From the IMG/VR virus record IMGVR_UViG_3300018424_000043, positions 1 to 46,411 of that record: a DNA stretch of 46,411 nucleotides; one strand, written 5' to 3'. Positions 4 through 41,299 of the stretch are shown piece after piece. The notes under the pieces were generated by a model, which saw nothing but the letters and a program-made list of their open reading frames with translations, was not told the DNA's origin and ran no database searches. Position 1 is the first letter of the stretch, and each line of letters begins with the position of its first letter. A program made the position numbers and the translations under genes. The DNA comes from a virus.

Positions 4-1338
<1,335 letters not shown>

Positions 1339-12491: not shown

Positions 12492-12512
12492 TAACTAAAT
12501 ACACTAACTTGT

Positions 12513-12541
12513 GGGGGGGTAGGACAAAAACCTACCCCCCT
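12513..12541 (+). terminator. Strong hairpin terminator after the capsid gene
   Basis: GGGGGGTAGG (12514-12523) pairs perfectly with CCTACCCCCC (12531-12540) around ACAAAAA; a G-T pair at 12513/12541 can extend it. There is no U-tract, so it would work as an intrinsic terminator without a U-tail or as an mRNA 3' end stabiliser. It shares the GTAGG...CCTAC core with the terminator after nrdJ. Confidence 0.75.
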
Positions 12542-37220: not shown

Positions 37221-37901
37221 ATGGGAATTATGAAGGGGCTAAAGGCCATGGAACAGGCCATTGATAAGCCCACAGCAATCGAAAGCAACGGAGTAAAGGT
37301 CCGTTGGCTTAAGTTGGAGGATGGTCAGTCAGTCAAGGCTCGCTTTATTAACGAACTTGATTCTGATTCACCCAACTTTGACGAGGCACGCGATCTTGCT
37401 ATCGTAGTGTCAGAACACACAAATCCAAAGGACTACAAGCGCAAGGCTGTTTGCTCACAGGACACAGAGGGTCGCTGCTTTGGATGCGAGATGGCTCGCA
37501 AAGAAACAATGGAAGATCGTAAGCGCGGCGGTTCGTGGAGGCCACGTTTGCGCTATTACACCAACTTGCTAGTTGATGATGGCATGGAAGATCCATATGT
37601 TGCAGTATGGTCGCAGGGTGTAGGAAAGCAGTCTGCATTCAATAGCATTCGTGAGTACGCTATTGACACAGGTAGCATTAGTAACCTCACATGGCGTTTG
37701 AAGCGTCAGGGTACTGGTACAGATACCACCTATGTTCTGCTACCTACGGCCCCCGATACAGAGCCATTTGATTGGAATGGTGTTGAGTCATTCAATCTTG
37801 AAAAGGTTGTTCGTGAGGTTCCTTACGCAGAGCAGGAATCTTTCTATCTAGGGTTTGATACCCTCTCAGCAACTTCATCGTCCACTAACATTGATTGGTA
37901 A
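37221..37901 (+). CDS. Single-stranded-DNA-binding protein, T4 gp32-like
   Basis: Coats single-stranded DNA during replication. This 226-residue protein has a zinc-ligand set His66, Cys78, Cys86, Cys89 whose spacing (H-x11-C-x7-C-x2-C) closely resembles T4 gp32 (H-x12-C-x9-C-x2-C). The region around it is OB-fold-like (VRWLKLEDGQSVKARFIN; RYYTNLLVDDG). The C-terminus ends in TNIDW, similar in style to the acidic-aromatic tips that SSBs use to recruit partners. AAGGAGA lies six bases before the ATG. Arginines are mostly CGT/CGC, indicating high expression. Confidence 0.8.
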   Translation: MGIMKGLKAMEQAIDKPTAIESNGVKVRWLKLEDGQSVKARFINELDSDSPNFDEARDLAIVVSEHTNPKDYKRKAVCSQDTEGRCFGCEMARKETMEDRKRGGSWRPRLRYYTNLLVDDGMEDPYVAVWSQGVGKQSAFNSIREYAIDTGSISNLTWRLKRQGTGTDTTYVLLPTAPDTEPFDWNGVESFNLEKVVREVPYAEQESFYLGFDTLSATSSSTNIDW

Positions 37902-37908
37902 TTAGGCT

Positions 37909-38007
37909 GGTGGGGGGAGTCGCAACGTGCTGGATTTCGCAAAACTTAGGATGGTTGTAGTTAACTGCTGAGTTACGGTTGAAATTCCAGAGAAGTCTCC
38001 CCCCACC
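37909..38007 (+). ncRNA. Candidate structured RNA / riboswitch-like leader of the polymerase gene
   Basis: Three nested helices fill the SSB-polymerase gap. P1: GGTGGGGGGA (37909-37918) with TCCCCCCACC (37998-38007), 10 perfect pairs, extended by G37919-C37997. P2: CTGGATTTC (37930-37938) with GAAATTCCAG (37981-37990), nine pairs and one bulged T (37985). P3: AACTTAG (37943-37949) with CTGAGTT (37968-37974), one T-G wobble, 18-nt loop. CAAC (37923-37926) in the P1/P2 junction can pair with GTTG (37954-37957) in the P3 loop, a possible pseudoknot. I do not recognise it as a known RNA class. An origin-type DNA structure is an alternative. Confidence 0.65.
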
Positions 38008-38021
38008 TTTACAAGAAAGGA
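38006..38021 (+). promoter_or_regulatory. Ribosome-binding-site hairpin competing with helix P1
   Basis: CCTTT (38006-38010) can pair with AAAGG (38016-38020) around ACAAG, hiding the polymerase ribosome-binding site GAAAGGA. The two C's (38006-38007) are also the last bases of helix P1. P1 formation would therefore remove both G-C pairs and free the site, so P1 would act as an ON state for translation from TTG 38027. Confidence 0.5.
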
Positions 38022-38026
38022 ATATT

Positions 38027-41000
38027 TTGTACGCACCACTTCACGTTCATACTCATTACAGCCTCATGGACGGCGTAGCAACACCAGAGGAGTATTCAGC
38101 AAGAGCAGCAGAGTTGGGGATGCCTGCCATTGCAATTACAGATCACGGCACGCTATCTGGTCATAGGCCAATGTATCGTGCTGCTAAGGCACAGGGCGTT
38201 AAGCCTATTTTGGGGATAGAGGGGTATATCACGGCAGACCGCTTTGATAAGAGAGATAAGTCAGAGAGAGCAGCCCCGCTTGATCTTGTCTATAATCATA
38301 TTGTTATTCTTGCTAAGAATGATGAGGGTCTAGAGAATCTTGGCAAACTAAACGAGATTGGGTGGAACGAGGGATTTTATAAGAAGCCCCGCATTGACTT
38401 TGAGGTATTGGACAAGTACGGTGACGGCCTGATTGTCACTTCAGCATGTATGAGTGGACTAATCAACAAGGCAATTGAGCAAGAAGAGTTTGCGGTAGCC
38501 AAACAGCACCTTCAGTGGTTTGGAGATAGGTTTGGCGATGACTTTTATGTAGAGGTTATGCCACACAATCAGCCTGGTATGAATGAGGCACTTGTTGAAT
38601 TGGCAGATGCAGGAGGCTACAAGATTGTTGTTACGCCAGACTGCCACCATGCGACGGTAGATCAAAAAGAAATCCAAGAGATGATGCTTATTCTCAATAC
38701 TCATGCCAAGTTAGACAAAGAGGCCACGTTTGAGAAGTCAAAGAAGTATGAAGATATGATGGAACGCCTTGATTATCTTTACGGTCATGACCGAATGATG
38801 AGTTTTAACAAGTTTGACATTCATCTTCTATCGCCAGAAGAGATGCGTGAGTCTATGGAAGGCAACGGTGGGTTTAGAGATGATATGTTTGTCAATAGCC
38901 TTGAGATTGCAGACAAGGTTGAGGACTATACTATCAGTCGCAATCTTAATCTTCTTCCTGCCGAACACCGCAACCCTGACGCAGAGATTAGAAAGTATGC
39001 AGAAGAGTTCCTAGAAGCCAATAATCTGCATACTAATCAAGAATATGTTGATCGCCTAGAAGAAGAGTTAGCGGTTATCAAGGAAAAGAATTTTGCTCCA
39101 TACTTTATCGTTGTTCGTAACATGCTTAACTGGGCGAAGAAGAATGGCATCATGGTTGGTCCTGGTCGTGGATCATCAGCAGGATCTCTGTTGTGTTATG
39201 CACTAGGAATTACAGACATTGACCCCATCAAGCATGGGCTACTGTTCTTCCGATTTATTGATATTGACCGTGATGACTGGCCTGACATTGATAGTGATAT
39301 TCAGGATAGCCGTCGTGAAGAGGTGAAAGATTATCTAGAAAAGCAGTATCGCTATGTTGCTAGCATTGCCACCTTCCTTCAGTTCAAGGATAAGGGAGTT
39401 GTACGAGATGTTAGCCGTGCCCTCAATATCCCCCTTGCAGACGTAAACCGTGCTCTCAAGACGGTAGATACATGGGAAGAATATCTAACCTCCAAGAACA
39501 CCGCCTGGTTTAGGGAAAAGTACCCTGAGGTAGAAAAGTATGGTGACAAGATGCGTGGTCGTATCCGTGGCACAGGGGTACATGCAGCAGGCGTTGTAAC
39601 ATCCAAGACACCCATTTCCAAGGTTGCCCCAATGGAGACACGCTCCGTTACAGGATCTACTGGCAGAATCCCTGTGGTAGCCGTAGATATGGAAGAAGCG
39701 GCAGACATTGGTCTAATCAAGATTGATGCACTTGGTCTTAAGACCTTGACGGTAATCAACGATGCTATCTCAATTATTGAAGAGCGTACAGGAAAGAAGA
39801 TTGATCTTAGTTCTATTGATATGGAAGATAAAAACATCTACGCTATGCTTTCTGATGGGTATACCAAGGGTGTATTCCAGTGTGAGGCAACACCTTACAC
39901 AAACCTCCTGGTCAAGATGGGCGTAAGCAAGTTCGATGAGTTGGTTGCATCTAACGCACTAGTTCGTCCTGGTGCCATGAACACTATTGGCAAGGACTAT
40001 ATTGCTCGCAAGCGTGGCAAGGAAATGGTTGTATATCCTCATCCAATAATGCAGGAGTTTACCTCAGATACATACGGTACAATTTTATATCAGGAGCAAG
40101 TTATGCTTGCCTGTACCAAACTTGGCGGTATGACTATGGGCGAGGCAAACAAGGTCCGTAAGATTATTGGCAAGAAGAAGGATGCGAAAGAGTTTGACCA
40201 ATTCAAGGAGTTATTTATTCGGAACGCAACTGGGCCACTTGGCGGGGCTGCTGCTGAAAAGATGTGGCATGATTTTGAGGCCCACGCAGGATACTCCTTT
40301 AATAAGTCTCATGCTGTCGCTTACTCAACGCTCTCGTACTGGACGGCATGGCTAAAGTATTATTATCCACTAGAGTTTATGTTTGCCCTTCTTAAGAATG
40401 AGAAGGACAAGGATGCTCGCACAGAGTATTTGATTGAGGCAAAGCGCATTGGTATTCCGTTGCGTCTACCACACATTAATGATTCTGATATTGATTTTAA
40501 GATTGAAGGGAAAGGTATTCGTTTTGGGTTGGCAGCAATTAAGTTCATTTCTGATAAGATCGCTTCAAGATATATTGAAGGAAGGCCATTTAACTCTTAC
40601 AAGGAAGTTGAAGAGTATACATTTACCAAGGGAAATGGAGTAAACTCTAGAGCACTAAACGCTCTCAATGCCGTTGGAGCATTGACGTTCTCAGACAATC
40701 CAAGGGACGATGAGAAGGTCAGGGAGAATCTTTATGAATATCTAAATCTTCCAGAGTTTAGTAATGAGGTTCCACAACACTATCGCGCACACCTTAATTC
40801 CGTTGATGAGTTTGATGAGGATGGAGTATTTATCCTGATGGGCGTAGTCAGAGGAATCAAGCGAGGTAAAGGTTGGTCAAGAGTAGAAATACTAGACAAC
40901 ACAGGATCTATTGGAGTATTTGATGATGAAGACACTAAGATTGAGGCTGGCAAGACTTATATTATTCTTGTTGGATCTAACAGAGTCATGGAAGCGATTC

Positions 41001-41299
41001 CTGTCGAAAATATACAGGGTAGTGAGTCCACACTACTAAAGTTTCTTAACTATAGGCAGTTGCCATATAGCGAAAAAGAGCATTATGTGCTATCCTTTAA
41101 GCCTCGCGTAACGAAATCAGGTAAGAGGATGGCAAGCCTTGTCGTGGCAGACCACAACAGAGAACTGTATTCAGTAGTTGTATTTCCTACAGCCTTTGCT
41201 ATTGCATACACAAGACTAGATGAGGGCAAGGCTTTTGAGATGGAATTTGGCAAGACAAAAGAAGGAGGGCTAACATTAAAGGAGGTAGTTCAAGCATGA
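38027..41299 (+). CDS. dnaE: DNA polymerase III alpha subunit (DnaE-type)
   Basis: Phage replicative polymerase of family C, 1090 residues. The start is TTG 38027 after GAAAGGA, giving MYAPLHVHTHYSLMDG, the usual N-terminus; the upstream in-frame TTG 37979 lies inside a structured element. The PHP domain has HVHTH and ITDHGT near residues 6-42. The palm has GPGRGSSAGSL and PDIDSD (Asp422, Asp424), and the third aspartate is Asp567 in LIKIDALGLK. An HhH-like region and an OB domain (~960-1030) follow. No separate proofreading subunit is seen; an intact PHP domain might supply it. It overlaps mazG by ATGA. Confidence 0.92.
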   Translation: MYAPLHVHTHYSLMDGVATPEEYSARAAELGMPAIAITDHGTLSGHRPMYRAAKAQGVKPILGIEGYITADRFDKRDKSERAAPLDLVYNHIVILAKNDEGLENLGKLNEIGWNEGFYKKPRIDFEVLDKYGDGLIVTSACMSGLINKAIEQEEFAVAKQHLQWFGDRFGDDFYVEVMPHNQPGMNEALVELADAGGYKIVVTPDCHHATVDQKEIQEMMLILNTHAKLDKEATFEKSKKYEDMMERLDYLYGHDRMMSFNKFDIHLLSPEEMRESMEGNGGFRDDMFVNSLEIADKVEDYTISRNLNLLPAEHRNPDAEIRKYAEEFLEANNLHTNQEYVDRLEEELAVIKEKNFAPYFIVVRNMLNWAKKNGIMVGPGRGSSAGSLLCYALGITDIDPIKHGLLFFRFIDIDRDDWPDIDSDIQDSRREEVKDYLEKQYRYVASIATFLQFKDKGVVRDVSRALNIPLADVNRALKTVDTWEEYLTSKNTAWFREKYPEVEKYGDKMRGRIRGTGVHAAGVVTSKTPISKVAPMETRSVTGSTGRIPVVAVDMEEAADIGLIKIDALGLKTLTVINDAISIIEERTGKKIDLSSIDMEDKNIYAMLSDGYTKGVFQCEATPYTNLLVKMGVSKFDELVASNALVRPGAMNTIGKDYIARKRGKEMVVYPHPIMQEFTSDTYGTILYQEQVMLACTKLGGMTMGEANKVRKIIGKKKDAKEFDQFKELFIRNATGPLGGAAAEKMWHDFEAHAGYSFNKSHAVAYSTLSYWTAWLKYYYPLEFMFALLKNEKDKDARTEYLIEAKRIGIPLRLPHINDSDIDFKIEGKGIRFGLAAIKFISDKIASRYIEGRPFNSYKEVEEYTFTKGNGVNSRALNALNAVGALTFSDNPRDDEKVRENLYEYLNLPEFSNEVPQHYRAHLNSVDEFDEDGVFILMGVVRGIKRGKGWSRVEILDNTGSIGVFDDEDTKIEAGKTYIILVGSNRVMEAIPVENIQGSESTLLKFLNYRQLPYSEKEHYVLSFKPRVTKSGKRMASLVVADHNRELYSVVVFPTAFAIAYTRLDEGKAFEMEFGKTKEGGLTLKEVVQA

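Follow-up and report, generated by a model that had tools for sequence, protein, structure and literature searches.

What is the role of the structured gap that separates the genes for a single-strand DNA-binding protein (ssb) and a DNA polymerase (pol) in the phage of IMG/VR virus record IMGVR_UViG_3300018424_000043? We analysed positions 1 to 46,411 of this record, a stretch of 46,411 nucleotides (nt) that we call the window. The gap measures 125 nt, from the ssb stop codon (37899-37901) to the TTG start codon of pol (38027), whereas adjacent junctions overlap or are 11 nt long, so it is indeed as exceptional as the original prediction, made from the sequence alone, had held. We propose, with a probability of about 65%, that the ssb message carries at its 3′ end an untranslated RNA, the element in this gap (37909-38007), which is built to pair with helices 69 and 70 (H69 and H70) of the host 23S ribosomal RNA (rRNA) and with the strand beyond helix 71 (H71), thereby docking on free or immature 50S subunits.

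The complementarity to rRNA is visible only by comparison with host genomes, and for this reason it was missed in the original prediction. An invariant loop motif of the element, TAGGRTGGTTRTAGTTA, matches at least 119 loci in actinobacterial genomes. These are 23S rRNA genes, matched on the opposite strand, and among the actinobacterial matches listed the motif has no genomic sites other than 23S genes. RNA from the plus strand of the element is therefore antisense to 23S rRNA. The complementary segments are as follows, where 23S positions are approximate E. coli numbers:

37921..37930, plus strand: 5′ internal loop CGCAACGUGC, antisense to 23S ~1963-1976 (GCACGAAUGGCG) in the permuted alignment described below; the match is better in relatives L085 and L087.
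37932..37940, plus strand: anti-H70 segment GGAUUUCGC (23S GCGAAAUUCC, ~1933-1942), which overlaps the 5′ arm of helix B; permuted alignment.
37945..37963, plus strand: anti-H69 segment CUUAGGAUGGUUGUAGUUA, the complement of Actinomycetes 23S 1911-1929 with one G-U pair (U1917); this is the invariant core.
37977..37982, plus strand: GGUUGA, antisense to 23S UCAACC (~1994-1999); permuted alignment.
37991..37996, plus strand: 3′ internal loop AGAAGU, antisense to 23S ACUUCU (~1980-1986, Actinomycetes version); permuted alignment.

The core of the element spans 23S ~1911-1942, omits the H71 hairpin, resumes at ~1963-1986 and runs on to ~2010; the stretch that is skipped corresponds exactly to H71. 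The order of the segments is circularly permuted, as though the rRNA followed one side of the hairpin downwards and returned along the other. Scored in this permuted antisense arrangement, the elements reach 28-38 against a shuffle maximum of 18. From 1000 shuffles per element, the fitted p-value is 1e-8 in the window and lies between 1e-5 and 1e-10 in five other elements. The 3′ part alone locates ~1979-2011 among 3060 positions in four of six elements. Scores in the sense orientation are at chance level, which does not fit a fragment of a sense rRNA gene. When three whole rRNA operons were compared with all fetched viral loci, the top matches were again the element. Taken singly, the blastn matches of the element to rRNA operons are weak (E 0.3 to 8); what counts is their recurrence and co-linearity. 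RNAduplex places the best pairing of the plus strand at this aligned region of 23S rRNA in 6 of 7 elements, and the simple ssb-pol hairpins of relatives gave no notable match to rRNA.

The gap is also more stably folded than expected, with a minimum free energy (MFE) of -44 kcal/mol against -32.2 +/- 3.6 for shuffled sequences (z = -3.3; 1 of 200 shuffles was equally good). Three nested helices had been predicted, and all three are borne out:

37909..37919, plus strand: 5′ arm of the outer helix, GGUGGGGGGAG (MFE; covarying pairs in relatives).
37930..37938, plus strand: 5′ arm of helix B, CUGGAUUUC (MFE, homologue folds).
37943..37949, plus strand: 5′ arm of helix C, AACUUAG (MFE, homologue folds).
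37950..37967, plus strand: 18-nt apical loop of helix C, which displays the H69 complement (MFE, hairpin comparison).
37968..37974, plus strand: 3′ arm of helix C, CUGAGUU (MFE, homologue folds).
37981..37990, plus strand: 3′ arm of helix B, GAAAUUCCAG (MFE, homologue folds).
37997..38007, plus strand: 3′ arm of the outer helix, CUCCCCCCACC, followed by UUU (MFE; covariation).

The outer helix consists of 11 base pairs and is GC-rich, helix B has 9 base pairs and one bulged U, and helix C has 7 base pairs. The check for conserved pairing that accompanied the prediction also came out in its favour, as the outer helix covaries among relatives and the fold is kept in 12 homologues. In all 12 the plus strand folds better than the minus strand, and the G-U pairs in helices B and C number 21 on the plus strand against 6 on the minus strand. 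Helix pairs were counted sequence by sequence, because the raw MAFFT alignment led RNAalifold to place the inner helices out of register. A further contact, between CAAC and GTTG, did not survive comparison: the corresponding bases are CAGC, CAAT, CCAT or absent in relatives, and those in the window are complementary to 23S rRNA instead.

Scans of IMG/VR with the SSB and polymerase yielded 160 loci, in which the ssb-pol gap takes one of four forms: empty (9-17 nt), or filled by a plain GC hairpin, by an inserted gene or by the structured element. The element is present in 12 complete distinct sequences, always in the same gap and on the same strand. Its core is 68-96% identical between the window and most carriers, compared with 36-55% at four-fold sites of ssb, and synonymous sites are near saturation. 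In one relative (L085) the gap contains a plain GC hairpin and then the complete anti-23S element; since both are found together, the element and its outer helix act as a separate module.

Other occupants of the gap include an HNH-type gene 3′ of the hairpin (L113, L114 and phage Wakanda, L488 1158-1454) and an unrelated gene of ~230 amino acids (L008, L100, L108, L095, L088 and L091). In L006, L097, L099, L101, L102 and L110 the plain hairpin overlaps a promoter-like TTGACA-N17-TAGAAT/TACACT directly before pol, which suggests a putative terminator-promoter boundary between ssb and pol in these relatives.

The element also matches a particular type of host. Among actinobacterial genomes the 3′ strand of H69 reads CCAUCC in one group, whose named members belong to the class Actinomycetes, and CGGUCC or CCGUCC elsewhere. 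ACUUCUC-like sequences at the 1979 region are found mainly in the CCAUCC group, and many other actinobacterial genomes have ACUUGGG there. With GGATGG and AGAAGT, the window element matches the Actinomycetes version at both diagnostic sites, which identifies a putative host type only. The actinobacterial version of the element was not found outside 23S genes in 247 Actinomycetes genomes. The host sequence predicted for phages of the L093 type, GGAGUAACGACUUCUC, was found in none of 296 genomes, and fine host-matching in this subgroup is unproven.

Is this a peculiarity of one group of actinophages? Scanning IMG/VR with exact patterns, we found an 18-mer antisense to the other common version of H69, TTAGGACCGTTRTAGTTA, in 56 contigs, of which one is a 23S gene and 55 are non-rRNA. 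An equally long antisense probe of the conserved sarcin-ricin loop, used as a control, was found in none. Related patterns widen the set to at least 117 distinct contexts, and 102 of those listed lie outside long open reading frames (ORFs). Of these 102, 95 have the end of an ORF closely upstream on the same strand, and 87 have a T run 3′ of the motif. Under a stricter criterion, 73 of 94 cases have the end of a long upstream ORF on the motif strand, compared with 1 on the opposite strand. The elements lie 2-50 nt 3′ of stop codons, and the upstream proteins form 17 clusters, including ribonucleotide reductase (RNR), two capsid families, SSB and several unknowns; a few of those with a single member could have arisen by chance. 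For the RNR cluster, the nearest cultured relatives are Flavobacterium phages. Cultured relatives found via RNR, capsid or polymerase do not carry the element.

The anti-H70 sequence TCGCTA, which was outside the search pattern, occurs in 10 of the 17 clusters (binomial 1.6e-11) and commonly sits in the loop of the downstream terminator. The capsid, SSB and FmdB-like families present the anti-H69 sequence in a CUUAGG/CCUAAG-type hairpin, where A-U/G-C swaps preserve the stem and, via wobble, the match to rRNA. A scan of wobble patterns against a control was dropped as proof of wobble, as the 'control' pattern picked up true members with a U opposite U1917. We favour the view that the window element may be the actinophage version of a broader class of anti-H69 RNAs in phage 3′ untranslated regions (3′ UTRs). 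It is on balance probable that natural anti-ribosomal 3′-UTR RNAs occur in aquatic phages of several host groups, where they pair with H69-70 and control 50S joining, assembly or protection.

Some further observations touch on these families. The window's own capsid gene is followed by a strong GC-rich hairpin (12512-12541, GTGGGGGGGTAGGAC...CCTACCCCCC) without an anti-H69 loop, and relatives of this gene, e.g. in L313, do have the loop at the corresponding site. In L319 the anti-H69 18-mer lies on the minus strand of the locus (~1883-1900), within a tRNA array and without a clear terminator; this may reflect either chance or a free-standing RNA gene. Jilinvirus-type enterobacterial phages (L304 ~1470-1560, L305 ~930-1020, L306 and L307) carry a sense 23S H71-like piece, TGTCGGGTAAGTTCC, in an intergenic region beside an integrase (sense score 24-26, antisense 10-13). 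Directly upstream of it is GGATCACCTCCT/GGATCACCTGCCTTA, which resembles the 3′ end of 16S rRNA.

In the window, the element's position makes it the 3′ UTR of the ssb message. The neighbouring features are:

37221..37901, plus strand: ssb, single-strand DNA-binding protein gene (PHROG 9721, E 2.5e-39).
38014..38020, plus strand: AGAAAGG, probable ribosome-binding site of pol (from the sequence).
38027..41299, plus strand: pol, DnaE-type DNA polymerase III alpha gene with a TTG start (Pfam PF07733, PF17657, PF02811).

Among cultured phages, the polymerases most similar to this one are those of Streptomyces phages (~54% identity). At the far end of the window (4-1338) is a collagen-like ORF rich in GPTGPTG repeats.

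How might such an RNA work? Structure, complementarity, conservation, mRNA-strand orientation, host-type match and recurrence in unrelated phages are computed here. The apical loop of helix C would display the anti-H69 sequence, the 5′ arm and the internal loops would supply anti-H70 and anti-1963-1986, and the GC-rich outer helix would close the unit. H69 and H70 lie at the subunit interface and are exposed in free 50S subunits, so the RNA would dock on free or immature 50S and not on 70S. A peptide nucleic acid (PNA) against H69 inhibits growth of E. coli (PMC7038079), and MazF-mt6 cleaves helix/loop 70 of 50S while leaving that of 70S intact (PMC5408214), which together make free 50S the likely bound form. 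We infer base pairing in the cell, with free or pre-50S bound. Once docked, the RNA may modulate 50S joining or assembly, rather than protect the message or the rRNA, and this is the weakest step of the argument.

Several points weigh against docking. The complementary bases lie partly within helices B and C, which must open, and the permuted order means that all segments cannot pair with one copy of the rRNA unless the element is unfolded. Phages rely on host translation, which makes inhibition a less than obvious role. Furthermore, one large family has a U opposite U1917, and blastn found no copy of the element in cultured phages.

Two rivals to the docking reading are serious. The first is that the anti-H69 loop acts in cis, holding on the message a 50S subunit released at the nearby stop codon, for protection of the 3′ end or re-initiation, with no action on other ribosomes. 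Such a tether fits the closeness of the elements to the stops of genes presumably expressed at high levels (capsid, RNR, SSB). However, a plain hairpin might already protect a 3′ end, and the copy in the tRNA array of L319, possibly a chance match, does not fit. We regard it as unlikely, if the best surviving of the rivals. The second serious rival is a shield: by covering H69/H70 in free 50S, the RNA would keep MazF-like or other ribosome-cutting defence nucleases from cleaving there. Candidate nucleases exist: actinobacterial MazF-mt3 and MazF-mt6 cut helix/loop 70, mt6 in 50S only (PMC5408214), and a Pseudomonas ribonuclease is reported to cleave eukaryotic H69 (PMC13189344). That said, the duplex itself might hinder the ribosome, and a shielding role seems improbable to us.

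It may also be asked whether the element does no more than terminate transcription or stabilise RNA between ssb and pol, as a hairpin whose likeness to rRNA has no function. A plain GC hairpin occupies the equivalent site in many relatives and in phage Wakanda, and T runs follow the element in L007 and L093, although in the window only UUU follows the 11-bp GC helix. This would account for the outer helix and the position, but not for the invariant loops, the match to H69/H70 or the recurrence in unrelated phages, and we give it little weight. We find it harder still to credit a minus-strand mimic of 23S rRNA (a decoy that would draw off rRNA-modifying enzymes or toxins) or a target at the DNA level (for a homing endonuclease, or an attachment site). 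The minus strand does resemble 23S rRNA, and an HNH gene lies 3′ of the element in L113 and L114. Against this, the minus strand forms a poorer fold with few G-U pairs and is missing the 5′ strand of H69; on the mRNA strand the elements are without exception antisense, and the hairpin stems show compensation. Least credible is the metabolite riboswitch or SSB/polymerase autoregulatory leader of the original prediction, for although a conserved structure sits before pol, it has no Rfam match, its conserved loops are accounted for by rRNA complementarity and the same loop follows unrelated upstream genes. Nor was a replication origin supported; the 'small stable RNA' also suggested is possible, as an ssb 3′-UTR RNA.

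The original prediction could not match the element to a named riboswitch or phage RNA, and Rfam returned no family for the window at gathering or relaxed thresholds; for eight related elements it returned tRNAs only. A by-eye resemblance to the hairpin ribozyme (AGAGAAGUC) was dropped because no loop B was seen. H/ACA and C/D guide RNAs were set aside as they gave no Rfam match, box motifs not being scanned separately, and the order of targets across the internal loop is what we take to be the reverse of that in an H/ACA pocket. Plasmid kissing-loop antisense RNAs such as CopA and RNAI carry their recognition sequence in the apical loop of a stable hairpin. The phage element shares this apical-loop display, but CopA and RNAI act on their own plasmid's RNA, whereas the phage element matches host rRNA. 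It also has features of trans-acting 3′-UTR small RNAs (sRNAs), namely a loop complementary to a target and a site 3′ of a gene on the mRNA strand. Bacterial base-pairing sRNAs of the CisR type (PMC13250501) are likewise untranslated, located after a gene and often terminator-ended, with a target-complementary loop; the phage element differs in that its predicted target is 23S rRNA, not mRNA, and in that it is phage-borne and known here from sequence. The synthetic PNA (Kulik et al. 2017, cited in PMC7038079) is antisense to the same helix but is artificial, not a gene product, and MazF-mt3 and MazF-mt6 share the H70 region as their site of action (mt6 only when 50S is free) but are bacterial protein nucleases, not RNA. 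We found no description of such an element in the open-access literature, most subscription journals being outside its coverage. Antisense RNA is a known mode of action; the 23S target and the phage 3′-UTR class appear to be new.

In summary, these results suggest a candidate, undescribed class of phage RNAs that may dock on the large ribosomal subunit. As the predicted contact is defined to the base, the claim is cheap to test. If it is true, phages act with RNA on the ribosome itself, at a central intersubunit bridge that is also a target of drugs and toxins. It would account for the conserved 'terminator' regions 3′ of capsid, RNR and SSB genes, and would provide a sequence handle with which to link uncultured phages to their host groups.
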